Shown here piece after piece: positions 8,577 through 52,598 of a stretch of DNA of 64,000 nucleotides. Position 1 is the stretch's first letter. The number at the start of each line of letters is the position of its first letter. The DNA is from Aquiluna borgnonia (GTDB taxonomy: Bacteria > Actinomycetota > Actinomycetes > Actinomycetales > Microbacteriaceae): the NCBI RefSeq assembly GCF_013283855.1, contig NZ_CP054056.1, forward strand, positions 124,001 to 188,000, written 5' to 3'. A program made the translations under genes and the position numbers. The notes below the pieces were generated by a model that had not been told where the DNA came from, did no database searches, and worked only from the letters and a program-made list of their open reading frames with translations.

Positions 8577-10406
8577 ATGAAGCGTTTTATTTCCATGGCA
8601 CTGGCAGCACTTTTGCTCGCTGGCTTTCAGAGTCAGGGAGCAACGGCGGCAACTGTGACCAAGGTCCAGTTTGTGGCGGGGTTTTCGGGAACCAACGTAA
8701 AACTTAGTTCTAGCCAAGCAGCACTAATCAAAAAAGCTTGGAGCAAATATCCGCTGGCCGAAACCGTTCATTGCTTGGCCCTGGTTCAAAAGTCCAAGGA
8801 CACTGTGTACGCCAGGGCTCGAGCAAAAAGCGCCTGCGACTATCTCAAAAAATTGGATGGCGATCTGAGAACGTTCGTCATTACCGCAGACACCAATTTA
8901 GCCAAGGACTCAGGTCAGATAGAACTGCAGTTCCGCTGGTCGACCACTACTGCTAATCAACCGGCCGTGAAAATGGTTGAGACCGAAGCCATTACTTTCA
9001 AAATCAACCCGAACTACCAGGTTGGAAAACCCTGCGGAGGCGGCTTTGGCTGGCAGGTGCTGGGCAATGATGCCCAGGGCAAGCCGGCTTACTTGAAGTG
9101 TGCGATGAAATCGGGGGGTAGCGGTCTGTTCCAATTGGACAGCTCAATGCCAAAAATCGACCCGGTTACTCGCAAACCCCTGGTACCGGAAACTGTGCCA
9201 ACCAAATCCCTTTTTGGCTACTCGCCAAATCTTTACATCGTCCCCAAGGTGGTCACCACCGCTCCCAAAACAACTTTGTCCGCAGGTTCCTTCACGGACT
9301 ACTCAAAGTGCAAGGTGGCCGCAGGTGACGATGGTTCGCTCGACAAAGGATTTGGTTTTCCATTGCCAGAGCTTCGTGCGGACCTAAAACCCAACTTCAA
9401 GATTCTTGTGATTCCGGTTCAATTCACCGACCACTTGACCAAAAACAAACCCGCCGATGACATGGGTGACGTGGTTTCGGCGCTCACAAACTTCTACACT
9501 CGCGCCTCCAGCGTTCCGGTTAGTTTTGACTGGACCATCCCGGACTCCTATTACCAAATGGGTAAGTCGATTGACTCCTTCAAGCTTGGGATTGAGTTCG
9601 ACAAAACTTTCAACACCGACTTTTGGACCAACTACCGTAAGTACCTGCAGGCGGCCATTGATTTGGTCGATAAGGACTACGACTTTTCAAAATACGATGC
9701 TGTGATCATTGAAGAGCCAAGGACCGTCACGGATGCGGAACACGGAATGTTTATTCCGCATGCCCCGGGCAAAGCAGGCGAAAGTGACGGACTCTACTCG
9801 GATGAAGGTCAAATTCTCAATCTGTTAGTCACTGGCAATGATGAGAGTCGAGATGTTCCAAACTGGCTGCACGAATTTGGCCACCTTTTCGGACTACCTG
9901 ACAGAAACTGGCAGGTTGGCTCCAAGAATGGGTTTGATCTTATGTGGGGTTGGTATGGCTCGCCCGAACTTGCAGCTTGGAACCGTTGGCTGCTGGGCGT
10001 GCTGAAGGATTCACAGGTTGATTGCAAGACTGATCAAGAATCATCGATTCACCTAGTTCAACCGGTTGCGTGGGTTGGTGATTACAAAAAGGCTGTGGTC
10101 ATACCGGTTTCAGATCACGAGGTCATCGTTGTGGAATCAAGGCGTCGCCAGGGCTATGACGCCCTGTTCGGTAAGGAGTCGGAGGGCGCTTACGCCTACC
10201 GAATTGACACTTCGGCCAAGATCTATTCACCCGACACGAAAAAACCAGTAGACGTTTTGGCCCCCAAGCGAAGCAAGCCGATTATGGACTGGGCGTTGGA
10301 CGCAGCGCTTGACCCAGGTGAGTCCGTGTCCTCAGATGGATGGAAGATTGAGGTCCTTGAGTCCGGGGCCTTTGGCGATGTCATTAAGGTGTCCAAAGTC
10401 AACTAA
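8577..10406 (+). CDS. Secreted M6-like zinc metalloprotease
   Basis: Predicted exported protein of 609 aa. The N-terminus MKRFISMALAALLLAGFQ, ending near GATAA, is a Sec signal peptide. At residues 432-442 it has HEFGHLFGLPD, the HExxHxxGxxD zinc signature of the metzincin-like M6 peptidase group (immune inhibitor A relatives), with E433 as predicted general base. A segment near residues 78-92 (YARARAKSACDYLKKL) resembles the RAxxVxxYL helix of OmpA-like domains seen in other actinobacterial secreted proteins; this is inference. Six cysteines could form disulfides. I choose the ATG because GGGGG lies 5 nt upstream; the GTG three bases earlier is too close. It has no partner gene. It is richer in AAA, TTT and GAA-type codons than its highly expressed neighbours. 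Its substrate is unknown. Confidence 0.75.
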   Translation: MKRFISMALAALLLAGFQSQGATAATVTKVQFVAGFSGTNVKLSSSQAALIKKAWSKYPLAETVHCLALVQKSKDTVYARARAKSACDYLKKLDGDLRTFVITADTNLAKDSGQIELQFRWSTTTANQPAVKMVETEAITFKINPNYQVGKPCGGGFGWQVLGNDAQGKPAYLKCAMKSGGSGLFQLDSSMPKIDPVTRKPLVPETVPTKSLFGYSPNLYIVPKVVTTAPKTTLSAGSFTDYSKCKVAAGDDGSLDKGFGFPLPELRADLKPNFKILVIPVQFTDHLTKNKPADDMGDVVSALTNFYTRASSVPVSFDWTIPDSYYQMGKSIDSFKLGIEFDKTFNTDFWTNYRKYLQAAIDLVDKDYDFSKYDAVIIEEPRTVTDAEHGMFIPHAPGKAGESDGLYSDEGQILNLLVTGNDESRDVPNWLHEFGHLFGLPDRNWQVGSKNGFDLMWGWYGSPELAAWNRWLLGVLKDSQVDCKTDQESSIHLVQPVAWVGDYKKAVVIPVSDHEVIVVESRRRQGYDALFGKESEGAYAYRIDTSAKIYSPDTKKPVDVLAPKRSKPIMDWALDAALDPGESVSSDGWKIEVLESGAFGDVIKVSKVN

Positions 10407-42865: not shown

Positions 42866-43162
42866 GTGTCGGTTTCCATCAAGCCACTCGAAGATCGCAT
42901 TGTTGTTCGCCCAATTGAGGCTGAGCAGGTTACTGCATCCGGTCTGGTCATTCCAGACACCGCTAAGGAAAAGCCACAGGAGGCTGAGGTAGTTGCAGTT
43001 GGTCCTGGTCGCTTCAGCGACGAGGGTGACCGTATTCCTGTCGACGTAAAGGTCGGCGACCGCGTCATCTTCTCGAAGTACGGCGGCACTGAGCTGAAGT
43101 ACGACGGCAAGGAGTACCTGGTGCTTTCTGCTCGCGACGTACTGGCAATCATCGAGCGCTAA
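42866..43162 (+). CDS. groES: Co-chaperonin GroES
   Basis: Heptameric lid of the GroEL folding chamber; 98 aa with a GTG start after AAGAGGTCAAA. It contains [17 protein letters not shown], the mobile-loop [20 protein letters not shown], and [18 protein letters not shown] terminator follows and the next gene is unrelated, so groEL must be elsewhere, as is common in actinobacteria with separate groEL copies. Confidence 0.98.
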
Positions 43163-43175
43163 ACAATTCCTAAGG

Positions 43176-43208
43176 AAGACCCCGGGCTGGTGCCCGGGGT
43201 CTTTTGCT
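43176..43208 (+). terminator. Rho-independent terminator of groES
   Basis: A 12-bp stem, AAGACCCCGGGC (43176-43187) with GCCCGGGGTCTT (43192-43203), has a TGGT loop and is followed by TTGCTTT. Confidence 0.93.
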
Positions 43209-43214
43209 TTGGCC

Positions 43215-43229
43215 TAGGCTTTAGGCGTG
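43215..43229 (+). promoter_or_regulatory. -10 box and leaderless start of the rarD-like gene
   Basis: TAGGCT (43215-43220) ends 6 nt before the GTG (43227). There is no Shine-Dalgarno and the groES terminator lies just upstream, so an independent promoter is needed. Confidence 0.45.
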
Positions 43230-44138
43230 AAGTCAGGTTCGAGTCAATCGGTCGGATTGTTAATGGGCCTGGGTGCCTACCTGATTTGGGGCGCTTTTCC
43301 GCTGATCATCAACCAAACGAAATTCGCCAACCCCTTTGAGGTCGTTACCTGGCGAGTAGTTTTTGGTTTCCTGTTTGCCGCCGTTTTGATAACTGCGCTG
43401 CGCCGCTGGGGTTCAATCGGCGCTCTTCTAAAAAGCCCAAAGAAATTGGGTTGGCTATTTGTCGCCAGCGTATTCATCTTCATCAACTGGGAGGTTTACG
43501 TCGTTGCGGTAGCCACCGAAAACACCATTGAAACCTCACTGGGGTATTTCATAAACCCGCTGATCACAATTCTGTTTGCAGTGCTATTTCTCAAAGAGCG
43601 GTTGCGCCCGGCGCAGTGGGTGGCGCTCACTCTTGGCTTAGTGGCGGTTCTGGTGTTGAGCTTTGACTACGGGCGACTGCCCTGGATCGCATTGGTGCTG
43701 GCTTTGAGCTTTGCTATCTACTCGTTGGCTAAAAATAAGGTGGGCGGGAAGATCAACGCCCTGGAGTCCTTCACTTTAGAATCCATGCTGATCATTCCGA
43801 TTGCTATCGGTCAGTTCCTTGTTGTGGCGAGTCTGACGCCCATCATGCTCACAAGCTCCCCCCTGCACACCGCGGTCCTGATTGGCTTTGGCATCCTGAC
43901 GGCAGTCCCACTCATTCTGTTTGGCGCTGCAGCCTCGCGCATTCCGCTCTCAACAATCGGCTTCATTCAGTACATGACGCCAATCCTGCAGTTTTTGACA
44001 GCTATCTTCATACTGCAAGAACCAATGCCCACGGTCCGCTGGATCGGATTCAGCATCGTTTGGCTTTCACTGATTGTGCTGACCGTTGACATGCTGAATG
44101 CCAGAAGAAGAGCGCATGTTGCCAGCGCTCAGAGTTGA
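43227..44138 (+). CDS. rarD: EamA/RarD-family membrane transporter
   Basis: 303 aa with ten predicted transmembrane helices. GAYLIWGAFPLI and FEVVTWRVVFGFLFA are the RarD subgroup signatures (the family consensus has W[GS]x.P and R.W.S). NWEVYVVAVATENTIETSLGYFINPL is the EamA core, and the second EamA repeat ends FIQYMTPILQFLTAIFI. E. coli RarD was named for chloramphenicol resistance, but natural substrates are unclear. It lies between groES and the amino-acid ABC region and has no operon partner. Confidence 0.88.
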   Translation: MKSGSSQSVGLLMGLGAYLIWGAFPLIINQTKFANPFEVVTWRVVFGFLFAAVLITALRRWGSIGALLKSPKKLGWLFVASVFIFINWEVYVVAVATENTIETSLGYFINPLITILFAVLFLKERLRPAQWVALTLGLVAVLVLSFDYGRLPWIALVLALSFAIYSLAKNKVGGKINALESFTLESMLIIPIAIGQFLVVASLTPIMLTSSPLHTAVLIGFGILTAVPLILFGAAASRIPLSTIGFIQYMTPILQFLTAIFILQEPMPTVRWIGFSIVWLSLIVLTVDMLNARRRAHVASAQS

Positions 44139-44386
44139 AATCTAATTGTTACGCACCGCTAACAAAGGCCCGTTTTTGACCATTTGGCCAGATAGGTCCT
44201 CAATTTTCAACGAATTCAGAAGCTAAAAGCCCCTCAAATCTTCGAAAACATCATTCTTTCTCCTCACCCGCTGGTGATTGCGGAACTGAAAAGCTCGTTT
44301 TTCCGCTTGAAATCGCTAAACTTTTGGAAGCAATGCGGGCACCGACGCACGCATTCGCCATCTAATTGCTATTTCAAGGAGCAAGA
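44139..44386. other. 248-nt gap upstream of the binding-protein gene
   Basis: I see no gene here. TAAACT at 44317-44322, identical to the rplM -10 box, lies 64 nt before the livJ-like ATG, but has no convincing -35. TTGACC at 44176-44181 has only CTCAAT at the right distance. The ATTACCAAA inverted repeat found upstream of livH is not present here. Confidence 0.35.
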
Positions 44387-45658
44387 ATGACTGAAAACAA
44401 GAAGTCACGCTTTGCCGTCAAGTCGATCGCTGCTATGGGTGCACTTGCACTCGGTGCAGCAGTTCTGACTGGCTGCAGCGCTGCAACCACCGCTGGCGGT
44501 TGTGAGCTCGGTCCAGAGCAGGACGGAGACCTAGTTCTAAAGCTAGGAACCGCCCTACCTCTAACCGGTAACCTCGCATTCCTCGGCCCACCAGAAGAGG
44601 CCGGTGTAGCTCTAGCTATCGCCGACGTCAACTCCGCCGCAAAGGGCATCACCATCGAGGCCACCCTGGGTGACTCCGGTGACACCGACAACAAGGCTTA
44701 CGACACTGAGATCCCACGTCTACTTGGCGCTGGCGTTGAGGCTGTTGTAGGTGCCGCATCGTCCGGTACCTCACTGCAGTTCATCGACCGCCTGGTTGCA
44801 GAGTGTGTAATCCAGTTCTCCCCAGCTAACACCTCAGCTGCCTTCACCACCTACGAGGACAAGGGTCTGTACTTCCGTACCGCTCCATCAGACGTCCTAC
44901 AGGGTGAGGTTCTAGGTAACCTGATCGCAGAAGACGGACACCAGAAGATCTCGATGATCGTTCTGAACGACTCCTACGGAACTGGTCTAGCTGAGTTCGT
45001 TACCAAGGCCTTCGAGGCTGCTGGTGGCGAGGTTCTAGCTGCACCTACCTACAACACCGGTGACACCAACTTCTCAAGCCAGATTGCCGAAGCTTTGGCT
45101 CCTGGACCAGACGCTGTTGTACTGATCACCTTCGACGAGGCTAAGACCATCGTTCCTGAGATCACCGCTCAGTTCCCTGGCGACAAGCTGTACTTCGTTG
45201 ACGGAAACCTGACTGACTACTCGGCAGACTTCCCAGCTGGCACCCTAGAGGGCGCTAAGGGAACCTACCCAGGTGTCAACGAGTCCAAGATTGGTGACTT
45301 CATCACTCGCATGGACGAGAACTGGCAGGCACAGGGCAACGCAGCACTTGAGCTAAACGCTTACGGTCCTGAGTCCTACGACGCAGTTGTACTTCTAGCT
45401 CTTGCAGCTCTTGAGGCACGCAGCACCGAGGGTGCCAACATGTCTGCAAAGCTTCAGGAAGTTTCCGGTGGATCCGGCAGCGGCCAGAAGTGCACCACTT
45501 TCGCCGAGTGTGCTGACATCATCAACGCTGGTGGAACCGCCGACTACGACGGCCCATCGGGCAACGTTACCTTCAACGAGGTTGGAGACCCAACCGACGG
45601 TAACATCCTGATTCAGCAGTTCGACGGAAACAACGTTCCTTCCACCATCCGTGGATAG
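44387..45658 (+). CDS. Branched-chain amino-acid-type ABC transporter substrate-binding lipoprotein
   Basis: Extracytoplasmic periplasmic-binding-protein type I lipoprotein (LivJ/LivK class); 423 aa from the ATG at 44387, preceded by AAGGAGC. The lipoprotein signal ends ALGAAVLTGC with lipid Cys30. The mature part has LGTALPLTGNLAFLGPPEEAG, VVGAASSGTS and NDSYGTGLAEF, characteristic of the family. Two Cys near the end (KCTTFAEC) may pair. Leucine codons are mainly CTA/CTG and AAA is avoided, as in tuf, suggesting high expression. It converges on the livHMGF operon, which probably encodes its permease and ATPases. The substrate could be an amino acid, amide or urea; not determinable here. Confidence 0.9.
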   Translation: MTENKKSRFAVKSIAAMGALALGAAVLTGCSAATTAGGCELGPEQDGDLVLKLGTALPLTGNLAFLGPPEEAGVALAIADVNSAAKGITIEATLGDSGDTDNKAYDTEIPRLLGAGVEAVVGAASSGTSLQFIDRLVAECVIQFSPANTSAAFTTYEDKGLYFRTAPSDVLQGEVLGNLIAEDGHQKISMIVLNDSYGTGLAEFVTKAFEAAGGEVLAAPTYNTGDTNFSSQIAEALAPGPDAVVLITFDEAKTIVPEITAQFPGDKLYFVDGNLTDYSADFPAGTLEGAKGTYPGVNESKIGDFITRMDENWQAQGNAALELNAYGPESYDAVVLLALAALEARSTEGANMSAKLQEVSGGSGSGQKCTTFAECADIINAGGTADYDGPSGNVTFNEVGDPTDGNILIQQFDGNNVPSTIRG

Positions 45659-45672
45659 TAACTAGTTCCAAC

Positions 45673-45712
45673 AAGAATCCCCCGGCCATTGGCCGGGGGA
45701 TTCTTCTTTAAT
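45673..45712. terminator. Strong terminator between livJ-like gene and liv operon
   Basis: A perfect 15-bp stem, AAGAATCCCCCGGCC (45673-45687) with GGCCGGGGGATTCTT (45691-45705), has a 3-nt loop and is followed by CTTTAATCC. Because the arms are symmetric with A/T ends, it can serve both converging transcripts. Confidence 0.92.
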
Positions 45713-45714
45713 CC

Positions 45715-45864
45715 TTATCGTTTCCGGTTCAACCAATCGATGACGGCGCCCACAAAAACACAAAACGCCATAGCAAGGGCGAGATTGCCAAACAGCAGGC
45801 CGAATGGAATTCCAACTCCGGCACCAATGGCGATGTAGGTCCCAGCGGGTGCTTTCTTAGGCAC
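45715..45864 (-). CDS. Small single-family membrane protein after livF
   Basis: 49 aa if translation starts at the GTG (45864) that overlaps the end of livF; the frame is open to an ATG at 45903, but that would overlap livF by 47 nt. The sequence MPKKAPAGTYIAIGAGVGIPFGLLFGN-type Gly-rich helix, then a second helix (LALAMAFCVFVGAVIDWL) and a basic end, indicates a two-helix membrane protein of the small glycine-zipper type common in actinobacteria. Function is unknown. Translational coupling to livF suggests a transporter or stress link, but this is inference. Confidence 0.6.
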   Translation of the reverse strand: MPKKAPAGTYIAIGAGVGIPFGLLFGNLALAMAFCVFVGAVIDWLNRKR

Positions 45865-46576
45865 CCAGGGTTCCGAGATACAAACCAATGACCTGTGGGT
45901 CATTCAGTAGCTCTCTACCGGTTCCGGTGACCGCATCTTTACCCTGGTCTAGGACGTAACCACGGTCTGAAATCTGAAGGCAGCGGCGAGCATTCTGCTC
46001 AACCATGATGCAGGTCACACCGGCCTTGTTGATTTCAGAAACCCTTAGGAAAGCCTCATCCTGACGAACAGGTGACAGACCTGCGGATGGCTCATCCAAC
46101 AGCAAGACCGCTGGATCCATCATTAGGGCACGACCCATGGCAACCATCTGTCGCTCACCGCCGGATAGAGATCCTGCGCGCTGCTTCAGACGCTTTCCTA
46201 GCTCCTCAAAGATGGACACCACGAAGTCCAGGCGCTCACTGTATTTGGCTGGCTGCTGGAAGATGCCCATCTGGAGGTTTTCCTCGATGGTTAGCGAAGG
46301 GAAAACGTTGTTGGTCTGTGGAATGAAGCCCACACCCTTGGAAACCAATTGGTTTGGCTTTAGTCCCGTGATGTCGTCACCGTTCAGGGTGATTGAACCC
46401 TCCCTGACCTTTACCAGTCCGAAGATTGACTTGAGCAGGGTGGACTTTCCAGCACCGTTGGGTCCAATGATTCCGATTAGCTCACCTTTGTCGGCGTAAA
46501 GATTGGCGCCATTGAGGATGTTTACCCCGGGAAGGTATCCGGCGACCAGGTCTTTGATTTCAACTACGCGGGTCAT
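45857..46576 (-). CDS. livF: Branched-chain amino-acid-type ABC transporter ATPase LivF
   Basis: 239 aa. Walker A is GPNGAGKSTLLKSIFG, the Q-loop is GFIPQTNNVFPSLT, the ABC signature LSGGERQMVAMGRALM, and Walker B VLLLDEPSAGLSP. IMVEQNARRCLQISDRGYVL is the LivF-type H-loop region, in which the switch His is replaced by Gln-Asn as usual for this family. Its ATG follows the livG stop without a gap, so the two are translationally coupled. Confidence 0.96.
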   Translation of the reverse strand: MTRVVEIKDLVAGYLPGVNILNGANLYADKGELIGIIGPNGAGKSTLLKSIFGLVKVREGSITLNGDDITGLKPNQLVSKGVGFIPQTNNVFPSLTIEENLQMGIFQQPAKYSERLDFVVSIFEELGKRLKQRAGSLSGGERQMVAMGRALMMDPAVLLLDEPSAGLSPVRQDEAFLRVSEINKAGVTCIMVEQNARRCLQISDRGYVLDQGKDAVTGTGRELLNDPQVIGLYLGTLGA

Positions 46577-47467
46577 TTACTTATCCTCTTCGCTAATCAC
46601 CTGGATGCGGCCGGTCACAACGCCCAGGTCAGTGTCCTGGTGGGCGCCGAGGTAGGCGTCAATCACGGCCTGCTCGCGCATTACGGTGTCGGGGGCGCCC
46701 TCGGCCACCACCTTGCCTTCAGCCATAACCACAACCCAGTCGGCGATGTGGCGCACCATGTGCATGTCGTGCTCCACAAACAGTACGGTCATTCCATCGT
46801 TCTTCAGGTTGAGCACGTGCTCGAGAAGCGACTGGGTGAGGGCCGGGTTGACTCCAGCCATTGGCTCATCGAGCATTACCAGCGTTGGATCGGTCATTAG
46901 GGCGCGAGCCATCTCCAAGAGCTTGCGCTGTCCGCCGGATAGCGAACCTGCGAAGTCGTCCTTCTTGGCATCGAGCTTGAAGCGCTTGAGCAGCTCCATT
47001 GCCTTGGCCTCAAATTCCTGGTCCTGCTTCTTCCAGCGGGATGGGATTAGGGCGTTGATCAGCTTCTCACCGGCCTGGTTCTTGGCACCGAGTTTCATGT
47101 TTTCAAGCACGGTCAATAGGCTCAACGCCTTGGTCAGCTGGAAGGTGCGGACCTGACCCATTTGAGCAACCTTGAACGACGGCACGCCAGCGAGCTGGTT
47201 TCCTAGGAACGACCAGGTTCCGGTGTCAGGAGTGTCAAAGCCGGTTAGCAGGTTGAACAGCGTGGTCTTGCCTGCACCATTTGGGCCAATCAGAGCAGTA
47301 ATCGCACCGCGCGGAATCTCTAGGTGCTCAACATCAACCGCGGTCAGACCACCGAAGGTCTTCTTGACATTGTCGATTACCAGAATCGGATCGTTCTTCT
47401 TGCAGCCAGGCTTTGCGTCACCAACGTGGAGGTTGGTGGATTTCTGGGGGGTTGGGTTAGCGGACAA
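46577..47467 (-). CDS. livG: Branched-chain amino-acid-type ABC transporter ATPase LivG
   Basis: 296 aa from a TTG start with GGGAGATGACC upstream. Walker A is GPNGAGKTTLFNLLTG, the signature LSGGQRKLLEMARALM, Walker B LVMLDEPMAGVNP, and VLFVEHDMHMVRHIADWV is the H-loop. N-terminal residues 1-28 are a polar extension before DNVKKTFGGLTAV. It overlaps livM by 11 nt. Confidence 0.96.
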   Translation of the reverse strand: MSANPTPQKSTNLHVGDAKPGCKKNDPILVIDNVKKTFGGLTAVDVEHLEIPRGAITALIGPNGAGKTTLFNLLTGFDTPDTGTWSFLGNQLAGVPSFKVAQMGQVRTFQLTKALSLLTVLENMKLGAKNQAGEKLINALIPSRWKKQDQEFEAKAMELLKRFKLDAKKDDFAGSLSGGQRKLLEMARALMTDPTLVMLDEPMAGVNPALTQSLLEHVLNLKNDGMTVLFVEHDMHMVRHIADWVVVMAEGKVVAEGAPDTVMREQAVIDAYLGAHQDTDLGVVTGRIQVISEEDK

Positions 47468-48440
47468 AGGTCATCTCCCTCTTGTCTCCGAAAATACCTT
47501 GCGGACGATAAATCACCAGGAGCATCAATCCGATTCCAACCAGCACATATCGCAGGGTTGCGGCCTGAATTCCAGAGACCGGAAGGATCCCTGAGGTGGC
47601 TAGTGCTGGCAGCACGTTGGTTAGGAAGGCCTGGAGCACCCAGAAGATCACCGAACCGACAATCGGCCCGAAGATTGTGGCAGCGCCACCTAGAAGCAAG
47701 GCAGTCCACAGGAAGAAAGTCAGTGAGGTCACGTAGACACCGGGTGAGACGTTGGTGCTGGTCGCTAGCACAATTCCGCCGAGAGCTCCGAAGACACCAC
47801 CGATGATTAGGGCCTGCATCTTGTAAGCAAAGACGTTCTTTCCAAGTGCGCGAACCGCGTCTTCATCTTCACGAATACCCTTGATTACTCGTCCCCAAGG
47901 TGAACGCATCAGTGACCACAGCAGCAGAGCTGCAAAGGCCAAAACAATCAAACCAAAAGTCAGAGTCCAAAGGGTTTCGGAGTTGTAGGTCCATGGGCCG
48001 ATGCCGTAGGTGCCGGACGGGAACGGGTTGGCCGCAGAGAAGCCACCCTTGTTGTTGTAGCCAAATAGACCATCAGCCGAACCGGTAACCGGCTCAAAAG
48101 CAGTGGTTAGGAACAGCAGGCGAAGGATCTCCGCGGCTGCGATTGTCACAATAGCAAGGTAGTCGCCGCGCAACCTCAGGGTTGGAATACCCATGATTAG
48201 AGCGAAGACAACCGATGCTGCAACTCCGGCGATCATGCCAGCCCACCAGGGCAGTCCAAAGGTCAACACGGATATGGCGTACCCGTAGGCACCGACCGCC
48301 ATGAATCCGGCAATACCGAAGTTCAGCAGGCCAGCGAAACCGAAGTGCATGGCGAGCCCAAGGGCTGCCAGAGCAAAGGCCAGCGTGGTTGGCGTTAGCA
48401 AACCAGCCAGGGTGTTGTTCAGAATTGATCCCCAATCCAT
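47457..48440 (-). CDS. livM: Branched-chain amino-acid-type ABC transporter permease LivM
   Basis: 327 aa from the ATG at 48440, which has GGAGGAGC upstream; the longer frame to 48752 is read-through inside livH. It has eight or more membrane segments. GFAGLLNFGIAGFMAVGAYGYA is the permease signature (N-terminal LxNFG), and RSPWGRVIKGIREDEDAVRALGKNVF is the EAA-like loop that contacts the ATPases. The end IGLMLLVIYRPQGIFGDKREM is typical of LivM. Confidence 0.95.
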   Translation of the reverse strand: MDWGSILNNTLAGLLTPTTLAFALAALGLAMHFGFAGLLNFGIAGFMAVGAYGYAISVLTFGLPWWAGMIAGVAASVVFALIMGIPTLRLRGDYLAIVTIAAAEILRLLFLTTAFEPVTGSADGLFGYNNKGGFSAANPFPSGTYGIGPWTYNSETLWTLTFGLIVLAFAALLLWSLMRSPWGRVIKGIREDEDAVRALGKNVFAYKMQALIIGGVFGALGGIVLATSTNVSPGVYVTSLTFFLWTALLLGGAATIFGPIVGSVIFWVLQAFLTNVLPALATSGILPVSGIQAATLRYVLVGIGLMLLVIYRPQGIFGDKREMTFVR

Positions 48441-48451
48441 TTTTGCTCCTC

Positions 48452-49756
48452 CTAACCAATCCGTTGTTTCTTGCCCAAGATGCCCTGAGGCCTGAAGAGC
48501 AGAATTCCAATGAGAACTACCAGTGCACCCACGTACTTGAGGTCGGCTGGGATCAAGAGCGAGCTGGTCTCGACCAGGATGCCCACCACAAGAGAACCAA
48601 GCAGGGCGCCGAATGCAGTTCCGAGACCGCCCAAGGTAACCGCGGCAAAGATAAGTAGCAGAATCTGAGCACCCATGTCCCACTTGATTCCGGGGCGGAA
48701 GTAGGCCCACAGCACTCCAGCCAAACCGGCCAGTGCACCCGAGATGATCCAAACGGTCTGGATAACCTTGTCTACGTCAATTCCTGATGCTGCGGCTAAG
48801 TCTGGGTTGTCGGAAATGGCGCGAGTTGCCTTTCCGGTCTTGGTCTTTAGTAGCCACCATGCGAAGCCACCGATTACGACAATCGAGATTCCCATCGAAA
48901 CCAGGTCGGTAACCGAAAGGGCAACCGAACCAAATAGTGGTACCAGGGTCGAGTCTGCGCCCGGAAGCTGCTCGGTTCCACCGCCAACGAAGTATTGGAA
49001 CAGGTAGCGGACGGTTAGCGAGAGGCCGATTGAAACGATCATCAGCTGCACGAGTGCGAGACCCTTCTTACGAAGTGGTTTCCACAATCCAGCATCCAGC
49101 GCCCAACCGAGGCCACCTGAGAGAAGAACCGCAGCTGGAATGGCCAGCCAAATCGGCAGTTGGAGGCCGGTTCCCAGAACTAGGGCCATGATGGCACCGA
49201 AGGTCACCATCTCGGAGTGTGCAAAGTTTGAAAGACCTGTGGTTCCAAAGACTAAGGACAGACCAACGGCCGCAAGTCCAAGCATCAAACCGAAGTTGAT
49301 GCCGTAAATCAGGCGAGCGACAACCTGGTCGAACATGGAAACAGTGACGCGAGTTCCCTCACCGATAAAGAAGTTTTGCACCACAGTGGTGCCCTTGCCG
49401 AGCACCTTTTCCTGCGTTGCGCCACCCTCGGTTACAGCAATTCCCTCCGGGAGAGTGGTCTGGTCCAGGGTGATCTTGTAGGCATCACCTTCGGTTCCAG
49501 GAACTCCGATAAACCACTTGCCGTCAGCACCGGTTACGGTTTCAGCGCTGTATCCGCCGCCGTCAACGGTGATGCGAATGCCAGAAAGCGGTTCGCCGTC
49601 AAGTTTTACGTTTCCCGTAATCCCGCGCTCGTACTCTTCTCCAACGCTGTCCGCCAGAGCTGCGGTTCCCGCGCTCATGCCGACTAATAGCAAAGAAATA
49701 AGTAATAGCAACGAGCCAAGCAACCGCTTAGGGTTGCGAGCAGAGAGGAAATGCAC
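48452..49756 (-). CDS. livH: Branched-chain amino-acid-type ABC permease LivH with exported N-terminal domain
   Basis: 434 aa against about 290-300 for plain LivH. Residues 1-36 look like a signal peptide (KRLLGSLLLLISLLLVG, ending TAALA). Residues 44-133 have the look of a CarboxypepD-regulatory or Cna-B-type beta-sandwich (GNVKLDGEPLSGIRITVDGG, then TGADGKWFIGVPG). The permease proper begins at about residue 143 (DQVVARLIYGINFGLMLGLA) with GLSNFAHSEMVTFGAI and ends FRPQGILGKKQRIG. The GTG start has GGAGGACAC upstream. The extra domain should lie outside the membrane and may meet the binding protein; this is inference. Confidence 0.92.
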   Translation of the reverse strand: MHFLSARNPKRLLGSLLLLISLLLVGMSAGTAALADSVGEEYERGITGNVKLDGEPLSGIRITVDGGGYSAETVTGADGKWFIGVPGTEGDAYKITLDQTTLPEGIAVTEGGATQEKVLGKGTTVVQNFFIGEGTRVTVSMFDQVVARLIYGINFGLMLGLAAVGLSLVFGTTGLSNFAHSEMVTFGAIMALVLGTGLQLPIWLAIPAAVLLSGGLGWALDAGLWKPLRKKGLALVQLMIVSIGLSLTVRYLFQYFVGGGTEQLPGADSTLVPLFGSVALSVTDLVSMGISIVVIGGFAWWLLKTKTGKATRAISDNPDLAAASGIDVDKVIQTVWIISGALAGLAGVLWAYFRPGIKWDMGAQILLLIFAAVTLGGLGTAFGALLGSLVVGILVETSSLLIPADLKYVGALVVLIGILLFRPQGILGKKQRIG

Positions 49757-49820
49757 GTGTCCTCCAAATCGTTTGAGCTACCTTGCTCGAAGCGCACCGA
49801 GTTGGCGCGCACCCGAAAAC

Positions 49821-49846
49821 ATTACCAAAGTTCACCTTTTGGTAAT
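49821..49846. promoter_or_regulatory. Perfect 9-bp inverted repeat upstream of livH
   Basis: ATTACCAAA (49821-49829), 8 nt, TTTGGTAAT (49838-49846). Arm length and spacing suit a dimeric repressor. It lies 65-90 nt upstream of the livH start and about 54 nt from the guaB -35. On the reverse strand TAATGT in its downstream flank could serve as livH -10. The repeat is seen; operator function is inference. Confidence 0.5.
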
Positions 49847-49899
49847 ACTCGAATGTAAACGATTGTTATCCCAATTCGAAAGCGCTTGCGGAATTCGCT

Positions 49900-49929
49900 T
49901 TAGACGCCAGATTCCAGCTTGGGTAGGAT
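49900..49929 (+). promoter_or_regulatory. Promoter of guaB
   Basis: TTAGAC (49900-49905), an 18-bp spacer and TAGGAT (49924-49929). The -10 is identical to that of rpoB. It would give a leader of about 32 nt with GAAGGA before the TTG start. AAAGCG (49879-49884) and CGCTTT (49896-49901) form a short inverted repeat overlapping the -35. Confidence 0.55.
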
Positions 49930-49934
49930 GGTGA

Positions 49935-51473
<1,539 letters not shown>

Positions 51474-51482
51474 GAGGCCAGC

Positions 51483-52598
51483 ATGACTGAAATCGAAATC
51501 GGCCGGGGCAAGCGCGCCCGCCAGTCCTACGCGTTTGACGACATCGCGGTGGTTCCAACTCGACGCACCCGCGACCCCGAGGATGTCTCAACCGCCTGGG
51601 CCATTGACGCCTACAAATTTGAGCTGCCAATAGTTGCCGCCCCCATGGACTCCGCTATGAGCCCGGCCACCGCAATCGCGATTGGAAAACTTGGCGGCCT
51701 GGGAGTCTTGGACCTTGAGGGACTATGGACCAGGTATGAGGATCCAACCCAGCAGCTGGAGGAGATTGCCAGCGCCAAGGCCGAGGATGCGACGTCGGTG
51801 TTACAGCGGGTTTACGCTAAGCCGATTCAACCTGAGCTCATCACCGCTCGCCTGGCCGAGATTCGAGCCGCCGGAGTGACGGTTGCCGGAGCGCTTTCCC
51901 CGCAGCGCACCCAGGAGTTTTCCTCGGTGGTGTTAAAGGCGGGCGTCGAATTGTTTGTGATTCGCGGAAACACAGTCTCCGCGGAGCACGTTTCACAGAA
52001 TCAAGAACCGCTGAACCTCAAGGACTTCATCTACAAGTTAGATGTGCCGGTCATGGTTGGTGGGGCGGCCAGCTACAAGGCAGCACTGCACCTGATGCGC
52101 ACCGGTGCAGCCGGCGTCCTGGTTGGCTTTGGCGGCGGCGCGGCATCCTCAACTCGCAAGGTGCTGGGCATTCACGCCCCGATGGCGACAGCGGTTGCTG
52201 ATGTTGCAGCAGCAAGGCGTGACTACATGGATGAGTCCGGCGGGCGCTATGTGCACGTAATCGCCGACGGCGGTCTTGGAACCTCTGGGGATATCGTCAA
52301 GGCAATCGCCTGCGGTGCCGATGCCGTAATGCTGGGCACAGTCCTTGCCAGGGCTGCCGAGGCTCCCGGTCGCGGTTGGCACTGGGGTCAGGAAGCAGTT
52401 AGCCAAAAACTTCCCCGGGGAAACCGGGTTTGGGTTGGCTCTCACGCTCCGCTTGAGAACATTTTGCTCGGGCCAGCGGACAATGCGGAGGGCACCAGCA
52501 ACCTGATCGGTGCGCTCAAGCGATCCATGGCAACCACCGGGTATTCCGACGTCAAGGAATTCCAGCGAGTTGACGTGGTAGTCAACCCCTACGAGTAA
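51483..52598 (+). CDS. GuaB3-family IMP dehydrogenase-related protein
   Basis: 371 aa, without CBS domains. It has the IMPDH/GMP-reductase barrel: YAFDDIAVVPTRRTRDPEDV, the PMDSAMSPATAIAIG segment, MRTGAAGVLVGFGGG, and GGRYVHVIADGGLGTSGDIV. At the catalytic-loop position it reads GGGAASSTRKVLG, so the Cys of IMPDH is missing. This is also so in mycobacterial GuaB3, whose activity is not established. It is translated with guaB (RBS AGGAGGCCAGC). The neighbourhood supports a nucleotide role. Confidence 0.93.
   Translation: MTEIEIGRGKRARQSYAFDDIAVVPTRRTRDPEDVSTAWAIDAYKFELPIVAAPMDSAMSPATAIAIGKLGGLGVLDLEGLWTRYEDPTQQLEEIASAKAEDATSVLQRVYAKPIQPELITARLAEIRAAGVTVAGALSPQRTQEFSSVVLKAGVELFVIRGNTVSAEHVSQNQEPLNLKDFIYKLDVPVMVGGAASYKAALHLMRTGAAGVLVGFGGGAASSTRKVLGIHAPMATAVADVAAARRDYMDESGGRYVHVIADGGLGTSGDIVKAIACGADAVMLGTVLARAAEAPGRGWHWGQEAVSQKLPRGNRVWVGSHAPLENILLGPADNAEGTSNLIGALKRSMATTGYSDVKEFQRVDVVVNPYE

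Follow-up and report, generated by a model that had tools for sequence, protein, structure and literature searches.

The first gene of an ABC importer operon in Aquiluna borgnonia is read, with a probability of roughly 95%, as encoding a LivH-like permease that bears a signal peptide and an outside, transthyretin-like domain, which would connect through a short linker to the first membrane helix at its outer end. This reading draws on the sequence and on predicted structures. All positions given here are those of the window, the 64,000-nucleotide stretch of the A. borgnonia genome that was analyzed. The extended livH gene is followed by a livM-type permease gene and two ATPase genes, and a lipoprotein gene, noted as converging in the initial annotation, faces livF (Table 1). 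The frame, coordinates, strand, and both peptides quoted in that annotation were found as claimed. The architecture is most likely a variant of the known LivH-type importer that is widespread and was not met in the literature searched; a full-text search, with subscription papers mostly outside its scope, returned no description of it. The subunit occurs widely in one phylum, family libraries score it as a LivH-type permease only, and about a quarter of it would be the outside domain.

Table 1. Features of the extended permease gene and its operon in the window.
Feature	Position	Strand	Details and basis
livH-type permease gene with N-terminal extension	48452..49756	-	434 codons plus stop, GTG start
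Shine-Dalgarno sequence GGAGG	49761..49765	-	four bases upstream of GTG, bases -9 to -5
Predicted signal peptide, residues 1-35, A-L-A end, then D36	49652..49756	-	sequence; aligned loci
Predicted exported region, residues 36-140, transthyretin-like/CnaB/CarboxypepD_reg beta-sandwich	49337..49651	-	Pfam, models, fold matches, dN/dS
Permease core, residues 141-434, PF02653, N-terminus predicted outside	48455..49336	-	Pfam, predicted model
livM-type permease, without such an extension	47457..48440	-	start taken as ATG by reading; PF02653
livG-type ATPase	46577..47467	-	frame as listed, profile matches
livF-type ATPase	45857..46576	-	frame as listed, profile matches
Substrate-binding lipoprotein, lipobox LTGC (by eye)	44387..45658	+	convergent with livF

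The permease core matches PF02653 (BPD_transp_2) over residues 150-419 at 145.1 bits, against a curated cut-off of 26.8. Since the match begins at residue 150, about 140 residues lie ahead of a normal core, in agreement with the initial annotation. The livM frame (47457-48446) matches the same family at 150.9 bits. Scores against two equivalog models fall below their NCBIfam cut-offs, with 84.6 bits for LivH (PRK10740; cut-off 379) and 123.9 bits for UrtB (TIGR03409; cut-off 250.3). Two permeases, two ATPases, and a binding protein are encoded together, as in branched-chain amino acid importer operons, and the matches of the lipoprotein in the PDB include the amino-acid-binding proteins 3ipc (E 4.5e-17) and 4gnr (E 1.4e-11). 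Judging by sequence, the system is probably an amino-acid-type ABC importer, with Leu, Ile, and Val as putative substrates only. It shares with other LivH/BPD_transp_2 permeases the core and a livHMGF operon with a Peripla_BP_6 binding protein, and differs from them in its domain, which is missing from the nine unextended permeases placed in the tree described below. The closest named relatives of the extended permease come from Microbacteriaceae and Aquiluna metagenome assemblies. No second copy of the domain was found in the same genome at E ≤ 1, and no RNA element reached Rfam gathering scores between positions 43000 and 52600 of the window.

The Shine-Dalgarno site, a conserved A-x-A cleavage motif, and a domain dN/dS of 0.05-0.14 give good support to the far GTG as the start of translation. 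Of the best 80 loci from the 581 named genomes that encode a relative, 77 have GGAGG ahead of an in-frame start of this reading frame, a count biased towards the hypothesis because starts were selected for their GGAGG site. Ala occupies position 33 in 134 and position 35 in 133 of 139 aligned loci, which were fetched for their likeness to the extended protein and include some genomes twice. The signal-peptide-like stretch reported in the initial annotation ends at this motif. Residues 36-140, which contain both quoted peptides, are hydrophilic. Comparison of the window with three close relatives gives dN/dS values of 0.10-0.13 for residues 36-140, 0.12-0.14 for residues 46-131, and 0.03-0.04 for the core; in three closer pairs the domain value lies at 0.05-0.08. 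The overall range of 0.05-0.14 covers the six of eight pairs with dS estimable in both stretches, the other two having saturated dS in at least one. The signal peptide is under looser constraint (0.05-0.45 over the eight pairs). Conservation across genera together with the domain dN/dS argues that the domain is not a product of chance. A start near codon 140, behind fortuitous upstream codons, would fit the many relatives outside the extended clade whose match does not begin until roughly profile position 140; however, the ribosome-binding and cleavage motifs, along with this constraint on a domain shared by several genera, make it very improbable.

The exported region was described initially as a CarboxypepD-regulatory/Cna-B type fold, and profiles, models, and fold matches all point the same way. 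In the whole window protein, PF13620 (CarboxypepD_reg) matches residues 46-96 at E 0.0015 and 19.3 bits, and the domain alone scores 22.4 bits (E 0.00016), both below the cut-off of 32.3; 99 of 103 aligned domains match it at E ≤ 0.01, the best at 4.3e-11. An AlphaFold2 model of the domain, built with 103 sequences, is folded, with eight strands over residues 44-132 and a mean pLDDT of 83.9, contrary to the initial annotation's alternative of no folded domain. With this model, Foldseek retrieved 23 chains at E ≤ 0.001 (best E 2.1e-5), and VIA-align gave Z scores of 10.8 to the SdrD A2-A3-B1-B2 fragment and 9.8 to carboxypeptidase D. Fold neighbors from the two programs comprise SdrD, pilins, CnaB, carboxypeptidase D, and transthyretin-like proteins, and the sequence profile of the domain retrieves NOMO2 and SdrD chains. 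The predicted model, which superposes on members of this group, suggests a transthyretin-like/CnaB/CarboxypepD_reg fold. The domain resembles CarboxypepD_reg/transthyretin-like and CnaB domains in its predicted fold and, in part, in its sequence profile, but here it is fused ahead of an ABC permease. Pilin-type Cna_B domains form an isopeptide bond from a set of Lys, Glu, and Asn/Asp. Such a bond was rejected for this family, in which positions 51, 99, and 128, chosen by motif likeness rather than superposition, carry a K/E/N-type set in no more than 26 of 103 members; the window protein has K, Q, and N.

Conservation in the domain extends past the Pfam match to a T-L-P-E-G motif (L102 in 137, P103 in 136, and G105 in 128 of 139 loci), and an N-F-F-[IL]-G-E-G-x-R motif is conserved just ahead of the first helix. 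Several polar residues are also well conserved among the 139 loci, namely N49 (100), D98 (115), N128 (109), E133 (100), and R136 (109).

The full-length model (22 sequences; mean pLDDT 75.1, pTM 0.64), which was not used for the orientation of the domain to the core, is read as having nine membrane helices in the core; a conserved GKATRA..DNP..AA segment connects helices 5 and 6. By what is generally known of ABC permeases, we take this segment to face the ATPases; counting back from it, the first helix starts outside. The loops assigned inside hold 12 Lys and Arg residues versus 3 outside, with loop borders set by hand. The domain itself has 8 Lys and Arg and 16 Asp and Glu residues. One published comparison describes UrtB as lacking the N-terminal helix of BtuC (PMC3098086), in line with an outside N-terminus. 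With the N-terminus of the core outside, a folded N-terminal domain would need a signal peptide to reach the outer face. The signal peptide and the predicted N-out core thus support the outer-face location suggested by the initial annotation, and the extended permease offers a clean case for N-out topology in this permease branch.

The extended form is common among relatives. In the genus survey, 19 of 21 other genomes had extended matches; one of the others had a fragment and one a weak core match only. The best 80 loci from the 581 named genomes encoding a relative all have the domain. In the phylum sample, at least 56 of 396 genomes, A. borgnonia included, gave a match that begins no later than profile position 51. 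Five strong matches in this sample start later: two at contig starts, one of a type found in Streptomyces, and two others. Among the matches listed, nearly all those weaker than 1e-84 begin no earlier than about position 95, a single fragment excepted. The order sample yielded 148 matches at E ≤ 1e-70 from 146 of 396 genomes, and 51 of these start after position 100. Inspection of 23 of the 51 found the domain in 10, most often behind a long linker, and no domain in 11; the remaining two were one inverted duplicate. In this locus (L208, genome G690), the permease core lies in two overlapping inverted copies, probably an assembly artefact.

The 11 inspected domain-less loci (10 of family f10, one of f3) keep the hydrophobic N-terminal segment. 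The Streptomyces type (L166-L174), found in 9 of 199 genomes, has a signal-like segment followed by about a dozen residues and no domain. A scan with the domain profile (E ≤ 0.001, frames of at least 60 aa) found one frame each in 99 of 110 flanking loci. The other 11 loci, domain-less (L175, L219-L223) or unextended (L224-L228), had it in no frame, so where the permease lacks the domain it was not found in another gene of the flanking stretch. One genome of the domain-losing genus (G729; C3:360455-361810 and C2:82612-83589) holds a second permease copy that matches from profile position 8 and may be extended.

An unrooted tree of 68 cores from the Actinomycetota sampled separates 49 extended and 10 signal-segment-only permeases from the nine unextended ones by a branch with 100/100 support. 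Six long outgroup sequences, 22 thinned ones, L143 (replaced by relatives), and the domain-less L200, L202, and L204 are left out of this tree, and L162 is counted as domain-less by its sequence. Eight domain-less permeases form one group (100/99) inside a group of 15 (100/99) that also holds seven extended ones, and this nesting points to loss. The tree accordingly points to an architecture that forms one clade in the Actinomycetota sampled, with a later loss in a single lineage nested inside it. The Streptomyces type falls at the base of the clade with weak support (90/45) and may represent either loss or an earlier state. Some unextended permeases have short N-termini. In four others (L150-L153), the open frame ahead of the core encodes different long hydrophobic stretches, perhaps extra membrane helices.

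In the gene neighborhood of the best 80 loci from the 581 named genomes, a tblastn search found LivG in 79, LivM in 79, LivF in 76, and GuaB in 75. The lipoprotein was found in 63 of them, several contigs being truncated. Among 20 more distant loci, the Streptomyces type included, 18 have a relative of the lipoprotein gene and 17 have it converging on the operon. Domain-less loci with flanking sequence retain the gene in four of five cases, three converging beside livF and one elsewhere in the stretch; in the fifth, the operon runs off the contig. All five unextended loci examined have it as well, three converging on livF and two diverging from livH. The layout of the operon and its converging lipoprotein gene is probably older than the domain. 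On a larger scale, the block guaB2-guaB / livHMGF / lipoprotein / DMT permease / groES (window positions 42866-52598) keeps its order in many Microbacteriaceae (L033-L112). At L181, LivM aligned in two pieces separated by a 360-base gap (about 9362-9721), a possible sign of an insertion or of divergent sequence in LivM.

The initial annotation had further proposed that the domain could dock the lipoprotein or a cell-wall ligand. Docking of the lipoprotein is possible, and distance correlation lends it no support. The comparison used 49 loci, left after near-copies were removed from 55 with all six genes. With all other parts controlled, domain and lipoprotein distances gave a partial r of 0.057, with 127 of 500 shuffles as high; the same analysis gave 0.163 for domain-core, 0.187 for domain-LivF, and 0.439 for LivM-lipoprotein. 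When only the core and GuaB were controlled, the domain-lipoprotein value was 0.253, against 0.256 for domain-LivM and 0.314 for domain-LivF. Of the seven parts measured, the domain also evolves fastest (mean distance 0.83, versus 0.38 for the core and 0.48 for the lipoprotein), which would be unusual for a tight docking surface.

Domain-less lineages retain a hydrophobic segment at the N-terminus and, in most cases, the lipoprotein gene; the domain is dispensable in some lineages and may therefore be an accessory, presumably one that transport as such does not need. Our tentative preference, at somewhat less than even odds, is an importer accessory flanking the LivHM pore at its outer mouth, where the domain most likely would contact the lipid-anchored binding protein or shield the mouth, either of which could make capture and release more efficient. 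The contact would resemble that in the maltose importer, in which the P2 region of MalF (residues 91-271) contacts MalE (PMC3150292). By analogy, both would be extracytoplasmic permease regions touching a binding protein; P2, however, lies inside MalF and belongs to another importer type. The correlation result, the fast evolution of the domain, and the lipoprotein gene mostly kept without it all count against such contact.

The fast evolution and the lack of special coupling to the lipoprotein suit a module mainly for folding, stability, or spacing, which would help insert the N-out first helix, protect the protein, or set a distance to the peptidoglycan without touching the binding protein. 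The hydrophobic N-terminal segment that outlives the lost domain and the pilins and adhesins with stalk-like domains among the fold matches also agree with this explanation. It is a plausible but doubtful one, as the T-L-P-E-G and N-F-F-[IL]-G-E-G-x-R motifs near the membrane seem conserved beyond what a simple spacer would require. The conserved polar residues might instead form a putative site for a small ligand or wall polymer whose binding regulates or localizes the importer. The outer-face position and the surface proteins with folds of this kind are compatible with such binding, but the fold matches alone demonstrate neither a ligand nor a function and the domain is lost in some lineages, so this role seems unlikely. 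For the preferred accessory role beside the pore mouth, as for the others, lineages that kept the signal segment and lost the domain amount to natural deletions, through which the role of the domain is directly testable.

An N-terminal module also occurs in a long-form UrtB from Shinella sumterensis (WLS10796.1, 543 aa; L195 679-2310), which likewise has a signal-peptide-like start, an extra N-terminal region, and a LivH-like core. Its extra region gives a weak HEAT_2 match (E 0.00029, 21.5 bits, cut-off 27.7) and showed no similarity to the domain in BLASTP. That this protein follows a similar plan with a HEAT-like region unrelated to the domain suggests that N-terminal modules were added to this permease branch more than once. 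It is conceivable, if rather speculative, that the N-out LivH/UrtB branch repeatedly gained exported N-terminal modules, transthyretin-like in Actinomycetota and HEAT-like in long-form UrtB, which would cover the pore as a lid or serve as a docking platform above it and regulate exchange with the binding protein. Such a module would add a control layer not met for this importer type in the literature searched. Short UrtB proteins from Thioclava (297 aa), Deinococcus (300 aa), and an actinobacterium (294 aa) are too short for such a module.
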